The notes beneath the pieces are model-generated. The model saw only the letters and a program-made list of their open reading frames with translations. It ran no database searches and was not told the DNA's origin. Below, piece after piece: positions 5,652-39,952 of a stretch of DNA of 64,000 nucleotides (its first letter is position 1; every line of letters begins with the position of its first letter). A program made the position numbers and the translations under genes. Origin of the DNA: Butyricicoccus faecihominis (lineage in GTDB: Bacteria; Bacillota; Clostridia; Oscillospirales; Butyricicoccaceae). Location of the stretch: the NCBI RefSeq assembly GCF_024462775.1, contig NZ_JANGCE010000020.1, positions 1 through 64,000 of the forward strand. Direction: 5' to 3'.

Positions 5652-7166
5652 ATGGGACGTACGGTTTTGGAAACAAGAGATATTTGTAAATCGTTTTATG
5701 ATAATCTGGTGTTAAATCATGTAAATTTTACCTGTACGTCCGGAGAGATACACACGGTGGTTGGTGAAAACGGCGCCGGAAAATCAACGCTGATGCGCAT
5801 TATTTCCGGCGTCTATCAGCCGACTTCGGGAGAACTGTTTATCAACGGCGAACCGGTGCGGTTTACCAATCCTTTGCAAGCGCAGCAGGCCGGTGTCAGT
5901 ATCATCCATCAAGAATTCAATTTGGTGCCCCACCTCAGCATTGCGGAAAATGTATTTCTGGGTCGGCAGCTTTGCAAAAAAAACGGCAATATCGATGTTG
6001 CCGCGATGCGGTCCAAAACCGCCGCGCTAGCGGCCATGCTCCATATGGATTCAGATCCCGACAAGGCGGTATGCCGCCTAACGGTCGCACAGCAGCAGAT
6101 GGTTGAAATCATGAAAGCGATTGAGCTTAACACGCAGATTATTATTATGGATGAACCGACCGCCGCATTGACGCCAGTTGAGGTAAAAACTCTTTTTGAG
6201 ATTATGCGGCGGCTGCGTGACGACGGACGGACGATCATCTACATATCGCACCGCTTGAATGAGGTGTTTGACATTTCCGACCGTATTACCGTACTCAGGG
6301 ATGGTGTCGTGTCCGCGGCGCTGCGCACACAGGATACAACAAAGGACGAGGTGGTCAGACGGATGGTGGGCCGCAAGCTCGATAATATTTTTCCGCCGCG
6401 CGATGACGCGTGCCCAGGAGACGTGCGGCTTGAGGTTCGGAACATGGTGATAGCTCCGGGCAAGGCACCCGCAAGCTTTTCTGTACGCGCTGGAGAGATC
6501 TTGAGCATCACCGGATTGGAGGGGCAGGGGCAGCGCGAAATATTGCGCGCGTTATTCGGCTTGCATCAGCCGGTCGCCGGAGAAATTCTGGTTAACGGTA
6601 AGAGCGCCGCGCTGCGCAATACACACTCCGCGATGGCGCTGGGCTTTACTTTTTTAACGGACGACCGCAAGAACGAAGGGCTGTGCCTCGACCTGCCGAT
6701 ATACCGGAATATCAGCCTGCCGGTGTTCCACAGACTACAAAAAGGACCGTTTTTGACCATACGCGCAGAAAAACAAGAGGCGCGGCGATATATGGAGTTG
6801 CTGAACATCAAGGCGGAAAGCGCGGAAGAAACAGTGCGCAAGCTATCCGGCGGCAACCAGCAGAAGGTGCTGCTTGGCCGGTGTCTGTCTCCCGCGCCGC
6901 AAATATTGCTGGTGCACGAGCCGACGCGCGGTATCGACGTTGCGGCCAAGGTGGAGATTTATAACCTTTTAAAGACTTTGGCGCGCCGAGACCGGGTGGC
7001 GATCCTCCTTGTTTCAAGCGATTTAATGGAAGTGCTCCACGTCAGCGACCGTATCCTTGTCGTATATGACGGCGGCGTGACAGGGGAGTTGTCCGCGCGA
7101 GAGGCGACCGAGGAAAGCGTGATGCGTCTGGCGACCAATGTGGCGGAGGAGGGAGCGGCAGTATGA
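5652..7166 (+). CDS. Sugar ABC transporter ATPase, RbsA/MglA type
   Basis: A 504-aa double-nucleotide-binding-domain ATPase. The first domain has Walker A GENGAGKST, the variant signature LTVAQQQMVEI and Walker B IIIMDEPTAALTP. The second domain has a degenerate Walker A region (ITGLEGQGQREILRALFG), signature LSGGNQQKVLLGR and a VHEPTRGIDVAAK box. This asymmetry is normal for RbsA, MglA and XylG. It energises import through the two permeases encoded next and overlaps the first of them by 4 bp. Confidence 0.95.
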   Translation: MGRTVLETRDICKSFYDNLVLNHVNFTCTSGEIHTVVGENGAGKSTLMRIISGVYQPTSGELFINGEPVRFTNPLQAQQAGVSIIHQEFNLVPHLSIAENVFLGRQLCKKNGNIDVAAMRSKTAALAAMLHMDSDPDKAVCRLTVAQQQMVEIMKAIELNTQIIIMDEPTAALTPVEVKTLFEIMRRLRDDGRTIIYISHRLNEVFDISDRITVLRDGVVSAALRTQDTTKDEVVRRMVGRKLDNIFPPRDDACPGDVRLEVRNMVIAPGKAPASFSVRAGEILSITGLEGQGQREILRALFGLHQPVAGEILVNGKSAALRNTHSAMALGFTFLTDDRKNEGLCLDLPIYRNISLPVFHRLQKGPFLTIRAEKQEARRYMELLNIKAESAEETVRKLSGGNQQKVLLGRCLSPAPQILLVHEPTRGIDVAAKVEIYNLLKTLARRDRVAILLVSSDLMEVLHVSDRILVVYDGGVTGELSAREATEESVMRLATNVAEEGAAV

Positions 7167-23481: not shown

Positions 23482-23509
23482 AAGACGAACTTTGTTTGAT
23501 GGTACTCTG

Positions 23510-23543
23510 AAAAGCGCCCGGATCGGTATCCGGGCGCTTTTCT
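23510..23543 (+). terminator. Terminator after gpsA
   Basis: A 14-bp stem AAAAGCGCCCGGAT with its complement and loop CGGT ends in TTTTCT. Confidence 0.85.
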
Positions 23544-31867: not shown

Positions 31868-33499
31868 TTACTTGCTCGCGGAATCTTTCCGCGCCGCGTC
31901 CGCCGGTCTGCGTTTGAACACGCGCCCTTCGTACAGGGCCGCCTTATGCTCCGGCGGCAAGCCCTCAATTTCTTGGTCCAGCTTTCCGCTGCACATTTTA
32001 CCAAGCCCGCAGATGACGCAAAGCGTGACGATGAAGATGGGCAGGCCGAAGATAACGGACATAAACTGCAGCGCGCCGGTGCCGACCGCGCCGAGGCAGA
32101 ACAAGCACAAAAAGGTATCCACGCCGACCAGCGCGCCCCAGATGATCTTCATGGCCATAGGCGCTTCCTCGTCTTCCTGCTTGCGCGAGGTTTTGATGGT
32201 CATTTTGGCCAACGTGCCGGTCATGGCGTCGGCGAGGGTGATGAAGCCGAAAAACAGCGCCGCAACGACCAAGGGGATCATGATTCCGCTGAGCGGCATG
32301 TGTTTGAGCAGCGCATAGTTTGCAATCGGTATGCCGCCGGCGGCGATTTCTTCGCCCAGATTCGCGCCTCGAAACGCGTCCAGAAAGATGGCGTTCCCGC
32401 CGAACGCGACAAACCAGATCAGGTTGAAAACCCCGGGGCCGAGCACGTTGACCAGCAGGAAGCGCCGCCAAGTGTAGCCCACGGCGACCTTGCCCTGAAA
32501 AACGCCCATCAGCGGCGCATAGGCCATGATCCACGCGACGTAAAACACGGTGTTGTTGGAGATCCAGCCGTTTCCCACGTTAAATGAATCCGTTGCCGTG
32601 ATGTTGGGGATGAATCTGGTGAATACCTCGCCGATCACCTGCGTCATGATCTTGCATTCAAACACCGTCGGCCCGGCGATAAATAAGAACGCGATCACGA
32701 CCAGATAAATCCACGCGTTTGCATTGCTGATGATGGCCATGCCCTTTTTTACCCCGCGAAGCGAGGACATGGTAAAGGAACAGATGACCACCACAAGGGT
32801 AATGATATAAACAAGGTTGGAGGGGGAAATGCCAAACACATAGTTCAGGCCGGAAGCGAACTGCTGCACGCCGAGGCCAAGGGAGGTGACCATGCCGCCG
32901 ACCAGCCCCAGCAGGGCGATCACGTCAAATACCTTGCCGATTGGCCCGAAGGCTTTGTCCTTGATGATCGGATACAGCGCCGAGGAGGGGCGCGGCGGCA
33001 GCTTGTGGTTCATCACCATATAGCCGCAGATGAAGCCCCAGAAGGCGTACATGGCATAATAGATAAAGCTCCAATGAAACACCGATTGGGATAGCGCGCG
33101 TACCGCGGTGTCCATGGTTTCGGGCGCCATGTTCCACCATGCGGGCGGATTGTGGAAATAGCCGATCGGTTCGCCCACGGCATAGAATACCACGGCGGTG
33201 GCGGTACCGGCGCAGGTGACCATGGCGCACCAAGAAAACATGCCGTGCTTGATCTTAGCGTCCGGGCCGCCCACCTTTTTGCTGCCTACCGGCGTCAGGC
33301 AAACGACAAAGCACAGGATCAGAATGAGCGCCGTGATGAGCATCATGAACCAGCCGGTGGAATCGGTAACGGCGTTATACAGACCGGTCATGATATGGAC
33401 GAAGGATTCGTTGAACAAGAAGCCATAGAGGATGAGGGCTAGCAAAATGCCCGCGCCCGGGTAAAAGATGATCGAGTTGATCTTGAACTTTTTTTTCAT
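31868..33499 (-). CDS. BCCT-family transporter
   Basis: A 543-aa polytopic membrane protein of the betaine/carnitine/choline transporter family with about 12 helices. The family signature region shows GNGWISNNTVFYVAWIMAYA followed by PLMGVFQGKVAVGYTWRRF. Earlier the motif GEPIGYFHNPPAW matches the BCCT Gly-rich/Pro-rich segment. Compared by eye with BetP, the Trp-Trp-x-x-Trp substrate box is changed to Trp-Ile-Met-Ala-Tyr, so the ligand may not be glycine betaine. It is downstream of the TIM-barrel gene by 43 bp, likely in one operon, and would supply that enzyme's substrate. Confidence 0.92.
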   Translation of the reverse strand: MKKKFKINSIIFYPGAGILLALILYGFLFNESFVHIMTGLYNAVTDSTGWFMMLITALILILCFVVCLTPVGSKKVGGPDAKIKHGMFSWCAMVTCAGTATAVVFYAVGEPIGYFHNPPAWWNMAPETMDTAVRALSQSVFHWSFIYYAMYAFWGFICGYMVMNHKLPPRPSSALYPIIKDKAFGPIGKVFDVIALLGLVGGMVTSLGLGVQQFASGLNYVFGISPSNLVYIITLVVVICSFTMSSLRGVKKGMAIISNANAWIYLVVIAFLFIAGPTVFECKIMTQVIGEVFTRFIPNITATDSFNVGNGWISNNTVFYVAWIMAYAPLMGVFQGKVAVGYTWRRFLLVNVLGPGVFNLIWFVAFGGNAIFLDAFRGANLGEEIAAGGIPIANYALLKHMPLSGIMIPLVVAALFFGFITLADAMTGTLAKMTIKTSRKQEDEEAPMAMKIIWGALVGVDTFLCLFCLGAVGTGALQFMSVIFGLPIFIVTLCVICGLGKMCSGKLDQEIEGLPPEHKAALYEGRVFKRRPADAARKDSASK

Positions 33500-33542: not shown

Positions 33543-34457
33543 TTACCGTCCGCTTAGGCCCAAGCCCAGCTCCTCGCGCAAATACCGGATGCTGTCGATG
33601 CAGAACTGGACCTCCTTTTCCTGCGCGATATCCAGCGGTTCTCCGGCGCTGGGATATTCGACTTCAAAGGTGATGCGGTCGAAGAAAGCGGGGGAGAGAT
33701 CCTTGAGCGTTTGCAGCGTCTTTTTACAGTCGATATCGCCCTGTCCCAGCGCGACGCCTAGAAAATGCGCGCCCTGATCGTCCCGCACCAGCTTGTTATC
33801 ACAGAAGTGGCAGTTGAACGCGTAAGGCGCCAAACGCTCAACAGCGTATTGTGGGTTCTCCAAAACAGAAACCGAGTTAATGGTATCCACACAGGCGCCG
33901 ACCAGAGGATGATGGAGCTGCTCGATCACCCAAACGATCTCATCGGCGAAGGTCTCGGTGTGGTTCTCGATCGCCAAACGAATGCCGGTGCGTTCATATT
34001 CGGGCAACGCCTCTTTGATCTGATCGACGACGTCGCAGAGCTGCCGCATCACGGCGGGATGCATACAACTGCCGTATAGCGGCGTGGGGCGACGGATATC
34101 CAAACTGAACTTGACCAGATCCGCGCCAATCGCCTCCGCGACCAGACAGGCGCTCTCGAAGGTTTCGTTGAGGCGGGGATCGAACTCCTCATCCAGTGAG
34201 CAGTTGAATTCCATGTATAGGCCGTGATCCTCGGCGGCTTGCTTGATCCTAGCCAAGTTTTCCGGATCGTGTTCGACCAGATCACAGTTCGTCACATGCA
34301 AGCCGTCCAGCTTCCACTCCACAGCCAGATCCATGAGCTGAAATATGTTGATTCTTTGTTCGCGTTGCTCGCCCACAAACCCCCAGTTTTGACCTAAGCC
34401 GTTCAGGTGCAGGGTGTAAGTGTGCATACCCAGCTTCATTTTTCGATCGTTGTACAT
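33543..34457 (-). CDS. Xylose-isomerase-like TIM-barrel enzyme
   Basis: A 304-aa sugar-phosphate isomerase/epimerase-type TIM barrel. Candidate metal ligands fit the family order: Glu in RLAIENHTE, Asp in GACVDTINS, His in NCHFCDNK and Glu in ITFEVEYPS. Other members epimerise sugars, dehydrate inosose or cleave C-C bonds, so the reaction cannot be named. ATG 34457 follows AGGAGG at 7 bp. It lies between a sigma-54-like promoter and the BCCT transporter gene, so it probably acts on the imported compound. Confidence 0.82.
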   Translation of the reverse strand: MYNDRKMKLGMHTYTLHLNGLGQNWGFVGEQREQRINIFQLMDLAVEWKLDGLHVTNCDLVEHDPENLARIKQAAEDHGLYMEFNCSLDEEFDPRLNETFESACLVAEAIGADLVKFSLDIRRPTPLYGSCMHPAVMRQLCDVVDQIKEALPEYERTGIRLAIENHTETFADEIVWVIEQLHHPLVGACVDTINSVSVLENPQYAVERLAPYAFNCHFCDNKLVRDDQGAHFLGVALGQGDIDCKKTLQTLKDLSPAFFDRITFEVEYPSAGEPLDIAQEKEVQFCIDSIRYLREELGLGLSGR

Positions 34458-34546
34458 GGTCTTACCTCCTAAAATGATTTCTGCCCCGGCGGGACATTTG
34501 TTTTGTGGGCCGCCTGTATGCGGTCAGCTTGATATAAAGATAAAAA

Positions 34547-34562
34547 GCAATATTCCGTGCCA
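34547..34562 (-). promoter_or_regulatory. Sigma-54-like promoter of the TIM-barrel/BCCT operon
   Basis: Read on the minus strand, TGGCACG is followed by ATTGCT, a near-perfect -24/-12 pair. The GG-to-GC spacing is 11 rather than the usual 10, which lowers confidence. It lies about 90 bp before the TIM-barrel start and about 155 bp from an inverted repeat suited to an activator. Confidence 0.55.
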
Positions 34563-34715
34563 GCGCCGCTTTTCTCATCACGCTTTTCATATTTCAGCAG
34601 GTTGCATAAAAAAAGTCTGCTTCGCTGTGGTTTTTGATATTTTAAATTGTGCAAATCAGATAGAAACCGCTGAAAGCGGCTTAGTGGACATGATGACCGG
34701 CCTTGCAGAACAGAT

Positions 34716-34776
34716 AAAAGCGCAACCATATTTGCACCTGTACGACGGAAATAGGTGCAAATATGGTTGCGCTTTT
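34716..34776. repeat. 24-bp perfect inverted repeat, candidate activator site
   Basis: Arms at 34716-34739 and 34753-34776 are exact complements around a 13-bp spacer. Each arm contains GGTGCAAATATGG or its complement. Placement about 150 bp upstream of the sigma-54-like promoter is typical for an upstream activating sequence. No T tract follows, so it is not read as a terminator. Confidence 0.65.
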
Positions 34777-34883
34777 CAAAACAGAAGAAAAGATGAAATA
34801 ACCTTATTTTTTATGATATCTACAATCGCCTATTGATCGAAATGCTTCAAAACTAGGATTTTCAAAAGCGGCTCGGCGCGTGA

Positions 34884-34910
34884 AAATATATTTGCAGAGC
34901 AAATATATTT
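34884..34910. repeat. AT-rich 12-bp inverted repeat next to the activator stop codon
   Basis: AAATATATTTGC and its complement are separated by AGA. It contains the same TTTGC half-site as the larger repeat. It could be a second activator site or a weak terminator of the activator gene. Confidence 0.5.
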
Positions 34911-34913
34911 GCG

Positions 34914-36644
34914 TTAATCCGCCCGCGGTTTGGCGCTGAGGATGTCCTCCAAGACCAGTCCGTTGCGCTTCATTCTATGTTGCAGGTTCTGGCGGCTGAT
35001 GCCCAGTTGGCGGGCGGCCCGTGAGATATTCCCCTTATTTCTTTGTATGGCGCTGGTTAAAATGCAGCGTTCCACATTGGAAAGAACCTGTTCCAGCATA
35101 CCATCGTCCGCGGTTTCCAGCGCCAACCGCTGATAGCCGCATACGCTTTGGATATGCTCGGGCAGGTACTCTTTCCGGATCACCGTTTCCTCATAGGGGA
35201 GCAGGTTCATGGCGTGCTCGATGCAGTGCTGCAACTCCCGTACATTGCCCGGCCAGTTGTAGGCGCAAAAGATGGCGAGCACCTCTTCGTCCACGTCGGA
35301 CACGCTTTTAGACAGCTTTTTGTTCATTTGCTGAAAAAAGGAACGGATCAGGATCGGGATATCCTCCTTGCGCCGGCGCAGCGCAGGGATGCTGATGTTG
35401 ACCACGCCAAGGCGATAGAACACATCCTGACGGAGCGCGTTTTCCGCGATCGCCTGATAAGGCGGCACATTGATGTTGGACAGCACCCGCACATCAACGT
35501 GCTTTTCCTCCGTCCCGCCCACGCGGCGCACCACGCCGTCCTGCAGCACGCGCAGCAGCTTGGCTTGCAGCGTCATGCTCATGGAATTCAGTTCATCCAG
35601 CAGCAGCGTTCCGCCATTGGCCTGTTCAAACAGACCGGGGCGGCGTTCCGCTCCGGTATAGGCCCCTTTTTCGGTGCCAAACAGCATGGATTCCAGCAGG
35701 TTTTCCGGTATGGCGGCGCAGTTGATGGCTAAAAAAGGTCCGTCGGCCCGGTTGCTCGCGTTGTGAATGCTCTGCGCCACCAGCTCTTTACCGGTCCCGG
35801 TCTCACCGTAGAGCATGACCGAAGAATCAGACCGGGCAATCATTTTGCACCGCTCTATCATTTCTTTCATGAGAGCGCTCTGGCAAATAATATCGTCAAA
35901 ATGAAATTTTGCGCTTAAGCCGCTTTTTTGCGGCTTTTTCGCGGCCGGATGCTTTTTGAGCAGACCTTCTTGCAGATCAATGATTTGTTGGCTCAATACC
36001 TCAATACGTGAAACGTCCGCCGTCATGCAAAACACGCCTAAGATCGCGCCTTCCTCAAAAATCGGGTAGCTGTTGCACATGATATCCAGCCGTTTGCCAT
36101 GCAAGGTCGTATAGGCTTGCCGCCGGTCCTCAATGGGCTTTTTGTCCGCGATCACCACGGGAACGGTCAACTCATTGCCGTCGATACAGGTATACGCCTC
36201 ATTGATATCCTTGCCGACGACGTTTTCAGGCACCAGTGATTCCATCCGCATCAGCGCGTCATTGACCAGCATGATCCGCTTTTTTTCATCGCACAACAAG
36301 ATCGGCTCCCGGATCAGGTTCACAATGGTGCCCAGCATGCGGTGAGATACCTCGCTGGCCGCGTCACGAAAACAGATAAGCCGCGTGTGCGCGGGCAGGT
36401 CCACCCCCACGGGTGTAGGGCAGAGGGTCAGATATTTGGAAAATGCAATATTGATATATGTGCCCGGCAGCTGACGGGTCATATCGGGAAGAATTTCGGA
36501 AAGCGTTCGTCCCTTGAGCGCTCCCGCGTCGGCAAGGAGACAGTCTGCCGCTTCGTTGCTCTCCAGAATAATATCGTCGTTTGAAATGAGGACCGCACCT
36601 AAGCCGAATTGGGAGAGAAAACGCATCGCCTCAAGATATACCAT
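34914..36644 (-). CDS. Sigma-54-dependent transcriptional activator (RocR-like)
   Basis: A 576-aa enhancer-binding protein. Two PAS-like sensor regions occupy about residues 1-100 and 110-220 and should bind the inducing signal. The AAA+ domain has Walker A GETGTGKE, the sigma-54 contact loop GAYTGA (Tyr for the usual Phe) and GGTLLLDELNSM as Walker B. A Fis-type helix-turn-helix ends the protein (NISRAARQLGISRQNLQHR). ATG 36644 is chosen because AAGGAGG lies 5 bp before it. The frame's first ATG at 36662 has no such site. It is transcribed toward the TIM-barrel/BCCT genes, its likely targets. Confidence 0.93.
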   Translation of the reverse strand: MVYLEAMRFLSQFGLGAVLISNDDIILESNEAADCLLADAGALKGRTLSEILPDMTRQLPGTYINIAFSKYLTLCPTPVGVDLPAHTRLICFRDAASEVSHRMLGTIVNLIREPILLCDEKKRIMLVNDALMRMESLVPENVVGKDINEAYTCIDGNELTVPVVIADKKPIEDRRQAYTTLHGKRLDIMCNSYPIFEEGAILGVFCMTADVSRIEVLSQQIIDLQEGLLKKHPAAKKPQKSGLSAKFHFDDIICQSALMKEMIERCKMIARSDSSVMLYGETGTGKELVAQSIHNASNRADGPFLAINCAAIPENLLESMLFGTEKGAYTGAERRPGLFEQANGGTLLLDELNSMSMTLQAKLLRVLQDGVVRRVGGTEEKHVDVRVLSNINVPPYQAIAENALRQDVFYRLGVVNISIPALRRRKEDIPILIRSFFQQMNKKLSKSVSDVDEEVLAIFCAYNWPGNVRELQHCIEHAMNLLPYEETVIRKEYLPEHIQSVCGYQRLALETADDGMLEQVLSNVERCILTSAIQRNKGNISRAARQLGISRQNLQHRMKRNGLVLEDILSAKPRAD

Positions 36645-37069
36645 CACTGCCTCCTTATCCATGATCGTTACGGGCCGTTCGTTTGGAATTACATTATTAT
36701 ATCATAAGATCGGCAAACGTACAGAAGATTGTGCAGGTGGCAAAATAAGAAAGCGCAGAAAAGGAGGCCCCCTGCCCCGGGGGGTATGTCCCGTCGAAAA
36801 TCAAATTTTCTTGATTTTCGCGCTTTTGATCGAAGCGTTATGATATAATTATGAAAACATCGGCTGCCCATCGTGCGCGGGCAGCCGGTGCTTTATGTTT
36901 TTCTGAGCAAGCGGTGTTTCCGGAACGAAGGAGGGTAGAGAAGCCGAGTACAAATGCAAGAAAAAGTAATTATGTGGAGGCAAGGGGGTATACCCCCTTT
37001 GAACAGCTCTAGAAGAGCTGTTCAAAGGGCTCTGTTCCTCCGTCTACAAACAAGAAGGAGGATAAAAGT
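36645..37069. promoter_or_regulatory. Divergent region and long structured leader
   Basis: The gap separates the sigma-54 activator from the SLH protein gene. Minus-strand -10 TATAAT (36696-36701) and plus-strand -10 TATAAT (36844-36849) both sit in the context TTATGATATAAT. Neither has a strong -35. Between them lie a CCCC/GGGG hairpin and the 10-bp repeat CGAAAATCAA/TTGATTTTCG (36795-36820). The rest is leader of the SLH gene. Confidence 0.5.
36858..37062 (+). ncRNA. Structured 5' leader with alternative hairpins and possible RBS masking
   Basis: A 12-bp stem (36858-36869 with 36879-36890, one G-U) opens the leader. Later, AAGGGGGTATACCCCCTT (36982-36999) overlaps a second 16-bp stem (36995-37010 with 37014-37029), so only one can form. 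TCCTCC at 37036-37041 can pair with the ribosome-binding GGAGGA at 37057-37062, or with GGAGG at 36976-36980. I do not recognise a known riboswitch family. Confidence 0.45.
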
Positions 37070-39906: not shown

Positions 39907-39952
39907 AAAGAGCGCCCGGATACGCAACATTCCGCGTATCCGGGCGCTCTTT
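39907..39952. terminator. Bidirectional terminator between two SLH genes
   Basis: A 19-bp stem with an 8-nt loop. CTCTTTCT ends the plus side and AAAAG begins it, so both convergent genes can end here. Confidence 0.8.

Follow-up and report, generated by a model that had tools for sequence, protein, structure and literature searches.

Among described systems, the closest to the locus reported here are the sigma-54 enhancer-binding protein (EBP) regulons of the Clostridiales. According to the text of Nie et al. (2019, PMC6615313), 65% of the activators in this group control a single operon, the UAS lie mostly 100–250 bp upstream, with multiple sites being common, and the promoter class common to these regulons is represented by an N5 consensus, TGGCAY-N5-TTGC. 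The text of a 2025 survey gives a consensus with variable spacing, TGGCACN5-7TTGCT (PMC12316311). A different kind of likeness is found in the uptake-signal terminators of Neisseria and the Pasteurellaceae where, as described in the text of Kingsford et al. (2007, PMC1852404), inverted copies of a protein-recognised motif form a terminator stem. It is argued there that selection should act against terminator-like palindromes of binding sites wherever transcription would be cut short by them.

The locus described here belongs to Butyricicoccus faecihominis and lies in a 64,000-nt stretch of contig NZ_JANGCE010000020.1 (the window), from a genome of 3.69 Mb (G000). As in the regulons presented in the text of PMC6615313, a Fis-HTH activator gene adjoins one operon and is accompanied by multiple candidate UAS. 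It departs from them in promoter spacing, which is N6 instead of N5, and in the form of the sites: the nearest named NCBIfam family, PrdR, has TGT-N10-12-ACA sites, whereas the dyad of the family in the window is GCAAA-N4/5-TTTGC. This sets the dyad apart from the PrdR sites in the text of that paper, among whose other groups one with the same motif may exist. The gap between activator and operon is, with high probability, a single-operon sigma-54 control region in which an inverted pair of sites doubles as the terminator of the activator gene. From the analysis, GCAAA-N4/5-TTTGC emerges as the candidate site of a family of sigma-54 activators in relatives of Butyricicoccus.

The activator and the sigma-54 machinery

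The arrangement of the locus is given in Table 1. The activator carries an AAA+ sigma-54 interaction domain (PF00158, 211 bits, E 1e-62), a Fis-type HTH (PF02954, 45.6 bits, E 5.6e-12) and a PAS_9 domain (32.4 bits), with a Walker A motif, GETGTGKE, at residue 286 and a GAYTGA loop at 333, which we take to be a loop of the GAFTGA type. Its best NCBIfam model is PrdR (NF041552), but the 370 bits scored fall far short of the cut-off, 795, and the protein was therefore not assigned as a PrdR regulator.

Table 1. Features of the locus, with positions in the window
Feature	Position	Strand	Description
Locus: activator gene, gap, TIM-barrel gene, BCCT gene	36662-34914, 34913-34458, 34457-33543, 33499-31868	minus	
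Activator gene	34914..36662	minus	Sigma-54 enhancer-binding protein, 582 aa; PAS, AAA+, Fis-type HTH
Candidate activator site A	34899..34912	minus	GCAAATATATTTGC; perfect dyad; starts 1 nt past the activator stop codon
Candidate activator site B	34882..34895	minus	GCAAATATATTTTC; 17 bp from A
Candidate activator site C	34757..34770	minus	GCAACCATATTTGC; within one arm of the 24-bp repeat
Candidate activator site D	34722..34735	minus	GCAAATATGGTTGC; within the other repeat arm, 35 bp from C
24-bp repeat	34716..34776	minus	Putative intrinsic terminator of the activator gene; shape fits both directions
Possible lone half-site	34649..34656	minus	ATTTGCAC; by eye, weak
Sigma-54-type promoter	34562-34547	minus	TGGCACGGAATATTGC; TGGCAC-N6-TTGC, one base over canonical
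First target gene	33543..34457	minus	Xylose-isomerase-like TIM barrel, 304 aa; PF01261, 75 bits
Second target gene	31868..33499	minus	BCCT transporter, 543 aa; PF02028, 384 bits

The genome encodes sigma-54 twice, with two rpoN copies above the cut-off (C37:22805-24112 and C47:13273-14532). Together with the activator domains, and with sites and promoter that keep their positions while the spacers between them do not, this supports the reading of the gap as part of a sigma-54 enhancer-binding module, which had first been proposed in a preliminary description of the sequence. A full rpoN is missing from most genomes of the family, 18 of 87 exceeding the cut-off and 26 of 87 giving any match. 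In a second genome of the species (G004), one copy (C1:2088787-2089956) has an internal TAG and is presumably of the C47 type, the other copy resembling that on C37 in score and frame length.

A 14-bp dyad in the gap

The preliminary description had pointed to TGCAAAT, scattered in both orientations, as the half-site. The copies themselves are present: four are exact, against a shuffle mean of 0.35 (one of 1000 shuffles reaches four), and eight are found when one mismatch is allowed, against a mean of 4.5 (24 of 300 shuffles reach eight), a loose count that is weak on its own. As the unit of recognition TGCAAAT was set aside, because of this weak count and because the whole 64-kb window holds 10 copies against 12.2 expected, so no enrichment. 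What replaces it is a 14-bp dyad, GCAAA-N4-TTTGC, of which the gap has four copies in two pairs. The pattern GCAA-N6-TTGC occurs three times in the gap against 0.055 expected, a number reached in none of 1000 shuffles, and these three are the only copies in 64 kb. Sites A to D were counted with one mismatch allowed; a fifth one-mismatch match to GCAA-N6-TTGC (34547-34560) overlaps the promoter and was left out of the count. The second inverted repeat noticed earlier was found as described, with 12-bp arms at 34884-34895 and 34899-34910. The TGCAAAT copy at 34650 belongs to no dyad.

Genome-wide, exact GCAANNATATTTGC is confined to this gap in G000 (three places) and to the orthologous gap in G046 (four places), and in G004 it occurs in this gap and once more at C1:1078367, within a 210-aa ORF. 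When one mismatch is allowed, matches to the pattern hardly differ in number from those to the reversed control (34 against 33 in G000, 40 against 42 in G004), so such counts say nothing about weaker sites elsewhere. This operon probably makes up the whole regulon. A dispersed repeat or mobile element was also considered and rejected, as the 19-base core of the arms of the large repeat (34716-34776) is exact only at this locus in the 3.69-Mb genome, the three other matches having three mismatches each.

Conservation of site positions

Locus L006, from an uncultured Butyricicoccus sp., encodes an activator 77% identical to that of the window, followed by the TIM-barrel and BCCT genes in the same order. 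Four exact GCAA-N6-TTGC dyads lie in its gap, together with a promoter of canonical form, TGGCATGACGATTGC. Measured to the T of the -24 element, sites A, B, C and D lie at 350, 333, 208 and 173 bp in the window and at 353, 336, 210 and 175 bp in L006, where the counterparts begin at 6818, 6835, 6961 and 6996 and share 12, 12, 12 and 11 of 14 bases; A and B are 17 bp apart in both. The sites are thus 79–86% identical and the promoter 75%. The spacers keep their lengths (111/112, 21/21 and 159/161 in window and L006) and little of their sequence, identity being 39% against 42% for shuffled sequence between B and C, 33% against 29% between C and D, and 47% against 43% between D and the promoter, the only spacer slightly above chance (13 of 200 shuffles are as good). 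The outer distances vary: from stop codon to site A there is 1 nt in the window, compared with 80 nt in L006, and the -24 element lies 105 and 93 nt, respectively, from the ATG. This is the pattern expected if protein-binding sites and their helical placement have been kept and little else.

The possible half-site ATTTGCAC, between D and the promoter, has its TTTGCAC beginning 93 bp before the -24 T in the window and 95 bp before it in L006. In the same spacer, 13 of the 15 bases of TGCAANNTGCTGAAA (34592..34606, minus strand) match L006, and in each species the stretch precedes the -24 T by exactly 44 bp.

Within the species, the gap of G004 differs from that of the window by 13 substitutions in 456 bp, none of them in sites, repeat arms or promoter, which together make up 95 bases; with p about 0.05, this is suggestive. 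Synonymous and nonsynonymous differences between the two genomes number 11 and 7 in the activator, 8 and 3 in the TIM barrel and 9 and 9 in the BCCT gene, and all the genes are intact.

Among 87 genomes of the taxonomic family, 12 match the activator at E 1e-80, and an orthologue (at least 77% identity) is found only in G000, G004 and G046; at E 1e-120, a sample of 391 genomes drawn from the class yielded none beyond G000. A search of genome contigs yielded eight loci, one of which is the orthologue. The exact module is carried by two species, the sole basis of this comparison.

Sites beside related activators

The search for the same sites beside related activators, which the preliminary description had suggested as a check, found dyad arrays at 8 of 23 loci, seven of them besides this species. 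At least two dyads (GCAAA-N4/5-TTTGC, at most one mismatch) occur within 520 bp of the activator stop codon at L015 (this species), L006, L062, L064, L078, L024, L022 and L080, where base-composition shuffles give 0.01–0.04 per gap. The 23 loci comprise 22 of the 24 family-search matches and L007, several of them read from longer stretches; L014 and L028, same-species copies of L015 and L059, were left out, as were L008–L013. Most dyads of the more distant family members span 15 bp, one more than in the window. Paired sites 32–35 bp apart recur at six loci (the window, L006, L062, L024, L022 and L080). A multi-site array is absent at 15 of 23 loci, including L017 and L020, where one isolated one-mismatch site each was left uncounted; the other 13 have no dyad within at most 520 bp past the stop codon, and in some of them the targets may lie elsewhere. 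For L030 and L031 the downstream sequence extends to just 79 and 106 nt.

These arrays bear on whether the dyads might serve another regulator, such as a repressor, instead of the adjacent activator. The specificity of a Fis-type HTH is unreadable from sequence, so that the pairing of this activator with this dyad is a prediction. Such a regulator nevertheless seems most improbable: the same class of dyad adjoins seven further members of the activator family, exact copies of the form found at this locus are absent elsewhere in the genome, and the HTH stretch ISRQNLQHRMKR is identical in the window and L006 orthologues, which share the 14-bp form.

Two of the related loci have features of their own. 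In the L064 gap (G033), about 72–115 nt past the stop codon, TTTGC and GCAAA half-sites alternate every 9–10 bp or so in a denser layout. At L080, an exact dyad, GCAAAGAAATTTTGC, lies a few tens of bases upstream of the activator gene and may mean autoregulation.

A putative promoter with an extra base

A -24/-12-like site about 150 bp from the large repeat had been pointed out earlier, together with an unusual 11-bp GG-to-GC spacing. The distance is 153 bases from the near arm, and the spacing is as claimed in the window and the same in the second genome of the species (L015, G004), so that GG and GC are 11 bp apart in both rather than the 10 bp of TGGCAY-N5-TTGC. Since the extra base is present in two genomes, a sequencing error is unlikely. 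With one base removed, the site scores 19.7 on a matrix trained on 11 promoter sites from these loci, which themselves score 16.7–23.2. No canonical N5 promoter is hidden elsewhere in the gap, the best N5 score being 2.9, at the N6 site itself, against at least 16.7 in training. The site is accordingly not classed as a canonical sigma-54 promoter, and would act as one provided that N6 is tolerated. The other seven promoters compared (L006, L062, L024, L022, L080, L078 and L067) are all N5, and the L064 gap has no promoter match.

The sequence TGGCACN6TTGC is itself not rare, and its significance lies in its place within the gap. The genome has only 5 exact matches, whereas its reversed control has 25, and N6 spacing as a genome-wide habit finds no support in these counts. 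All four exact genome matches to TGGCACGN4TTGC are on the contigs that carry activator genes, C12 and C37; with one mismatch there are 95, against 158 for the reversed control, so that loose matches are meaningless. A second sigma-54 factor dedicated to N6 promoters was considered and dropped, as G004 shares the N6 promoter, yet its second rpoN copy has a stop codon.

Judged by its sequence the N6 promoter is a putative one, which may be active, weak or dead. Decay, in which the inserted base inactivated or weakened the promoter and the operon relies on read-through or another promoter, is an alternative that we rate as doubtful, though not negligible. It would explain why both genomes of the species are N6 and the seven others compared N5, it accords with the N5 consensus in the text of PMC6615313, and the four exact TGGCACGN4TTGC matches, all on activator contigs, may be counted in its favour. 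Against decay, both elements are near-perfect and in place, as the matrix score indicates, and the genes behind them are intact in both genomes. A simple scan for a sigma-70-like promoter found none on the minus strand of 34200-35200, and the consensus in the text of PMC12316311 permits N5-7. Shared by two genomes, the N6 promoter lends itself to probing how strictly sigma-54 promoters must keep their spacing.

The 24-bp repeat as candidate site pair and probable terminator

The perfect 24-bp inverted repeat has, as had been described, arms at 34716-34739 and 34753-34776, separated by a 13-nt loop. It is the longest perfect inverted repeat in the 64-kb window (arms at most 40 bp apart), and 100 dinucleotide shuffles of the gap gave none longer than 10 bp. 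It consists of dyads C and D head to head, one per arm, extended outward, and is accordingly not one large operator. The expectation that the repeat would be found beside the orthologous activator failed: in L006 both sites are kept, though the extension past the dyads is absent, so the 24-bp repeat as such is not conserved. The C/D pair there makes a poor hairpin, its z being -2.1 where the pair of the window has -7.5. Past the activator stop codon, L006 has a hairpin of 16 bp that is separate from this pair.

In the window, the repeat alone folds at -38.1 kcal/mol, and a 91-nt RNA around it has a z of -7.5 on the minus strand and -8.8 on the plus. The hairpin is followed by a T-rich tail, TTTTATCTGTT, which is short and modest, so that the stable hairpin and U-rich tract of an intrinsic terminator are both found, the tract in a modest form. 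The lower stem, AAAAGCGC/GCGCTTTT, resembles that of other hairpins in the window, such as 23509-23542 and 39907-39952. From stop codon to promoter this is the strongest T-tailed hairpin, the next best reaching -9.4 kcal/mol. Judged by these features it is probably the terminator of the activator gene, with the caveat that it ends about 200 nt past the stop codon.

The same features could suggest that the repeat is only an intrinsic terminator and the TGCAAAT motifs incidental: the hairpin is very stable, its base is like those of other terminator-like repeats in the window, and no other T-tailed hairpin in the gap comes near it. We nevertheless find this scarcely credible, since L006 keeps both 14-bp dyads in position without the hairpin, dyads A and B lie outside it, and the exact motif is restricted to the gap genome-wide.

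A scan from stop codon to promoter in the eight gaps that have a promoter, run without a shuffle control, showed that each of them has a T-tailed hairpin at least as stable as -20 kcal/mol. The strongest is built on activator-type dyads in four (the window, L080, L078 and L067) and is separate from them in the other four (L006, L062, L024 and L022). In L080 and L078 the centre of the hairpin is an activator dyad, within perfect arms of 15 and 13 bp, and in L067 it is a related dyad, GCAAT-N5-ATTGC. The last case is post hoc, because the dyad was recognised, and the locus added, only after the hairpin had been seen; L067 also has a second T-tailed hairpin, of -17.9 kcal/mol, after the dyad hairpin. 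The even split among eight loci is suggestive. L064, with a perfect dyad-centred hairpin that has no T-tail, departs from the promoter pattern as well as from that of the terminator, and L062 has a perfect 16-bp inverted pair of sites without a T-tail and a separate terminator alongside. Extension of the stem of a single site past the dyad by at least eight pairs was seen in 3 of 25 array sites and 1 of 85 sites elsewhere, the latter coming from overlapping loci and including one, at L063 with an extension of 13, whose own surroundings are regulatory. None of sites A–D is singly extended, so the case for the window is that of the C/D pair.

It is also conceivable that the repeat acts only as a DNA-level operator, having acquired its symmetry by quasipalindrome correction or by selection for cooperative binding, with termination elsewhere or absent. 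The pair in L062 and the recurrence of pairs 32–35 bp apart at six loci would suit such a reading. Pairing outside the dyads, however, differs among the window, L080 and L078 and is self-complementary in each, which favours a role in RNA over a longer DNA palindrome, and the window, L080, L078 and L067 have no second T-tailed hairpin of -20 kcal/mol. A purely DNA-level role is therefore judged unlikely, and the repeat is read as a candidate site pair that is probably also a terminator.

As for why sites and terminator should have fused repeatedly, the plainest reason is that a palindromic site is already a short hairpin and evolves easily into a terminator. Fusion would mean that neither operator alone nor terminator alone is a safe reading of a palindromic regulator site at a 3' end. 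The nearest published parallel found is the inverted uptake-signal terminator of PMC1852404; the text of that paper describes a dispersed motif of hundreds of copies, whereas the window holds candidate enhancer sites of an activator whose own transcript probably ends there. In the literature searched for enhancer or factor sites within terminators, supplements excepted, no enhancer that forms the terminator of its own activator was found.

The proposition that such fusion is a recurrent and selected design, arisen separately at several loci, is put forward only tentatively, as we consider it rather improbable. If true, transcription of the activator gene would sweep polymerase through its own enhancer and stop there, coupling activator synthesis, enhancer occupancy and operon output. 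The coupling could be negative feedback, with bound activator displaced, or a roadblock that sharpens termination when activator is bound. Regulatory coupling of this kind is possible.

A further hairpin with a perfect stem (TTTGCAGGTGGTGCA ... TGCACCACCTGCAAA) lies at L063 10674-10710 (G023:C4), upstream of a gene for a CutC-like enzyme. It bears activator-type half-sites and is adjoined by a separate terminator-like hairpin.

Proposed regulation and target genes

In the regulation that we propose, the PAS domain of the activator would probably sense a small molecule, and activator dimers would bind the four 14-bp dyads, 173–350 bp upstream of the -24 element. Sites A and B, starting 350 and 333 bp upstream, are beyond the usual 100–250 bp, a caveat to their reading as enhancer. 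The AAA+ ring would assemble at the dyads and loop onto the RNA polymerase-sigma-54 waiting at the promoter, a contact predicted to switch on both genes of the operon, whose products would probably import and process a betaine-like quaternary amine. The flanks of head-to-head sites C and D have become perfectly complementary, so that RNA from the activator gene may form the 24-bp hairpin and halt transcription ahead of the operon. The scheme starts from what the sequences show, namely a conserved site geometry, exact sites confined to this gap, sites of the same class by related activators, and a hairpin of high predicted stability in a fitting place; that the activator binds, what its ligand is, that the operon depends on sigma-54, that the hairpin terminates and that an N6 promoter works are all predictions.

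The proteins of the operon give partial guidance to its substrate. The TIM barrel has no NCBIfam family and no PDB sequence match at E 0.001, and the best NCBIfam models of the transporter, bcct and betaine_BCCT, both score below cut-off. Homologues of the TIM barrel are rare, occurring in 5 of 394 sampled genomes of the order and 3 of 391 of the class, its own included; G046 carries the gene, yet is not among the matches in either sample. The neighbourhoods of these homologues or of related activators contain MttB-like methyltransferases (L062, L074 and L078) and CutC-like glycyl radical enzymes (L058 and L067), and BCCT transporters are also present in L058, L062, L074 and L080. Among the MttB-, CutC- and BCCT-like neighbours scanned, none reaches the cut-off of those models; the only models passed are the broad one for the glycyl-radical subfamily and, next to the TIM barrel of L058, one for an AgcS-type carrier. 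The activator family of the dyad sits beside betaine-, choline- and trimethylamine-type genes, as in quaternary-amine clusters, and differs in the window in that the operon is a TIM barrel and a transporter alone. A betaine-like quaternary amine is a reasonable guess for both inducer and substrate. In L074 1508-17133 (G806), a TIM-barrel homologue 57% identical to that of the window lies amid four MttB-looking genes in a run that also holds a BCCT and other transporters, activators and N5 promoters; one MttB-type gene and the BCCT of this run were scanned against the models.
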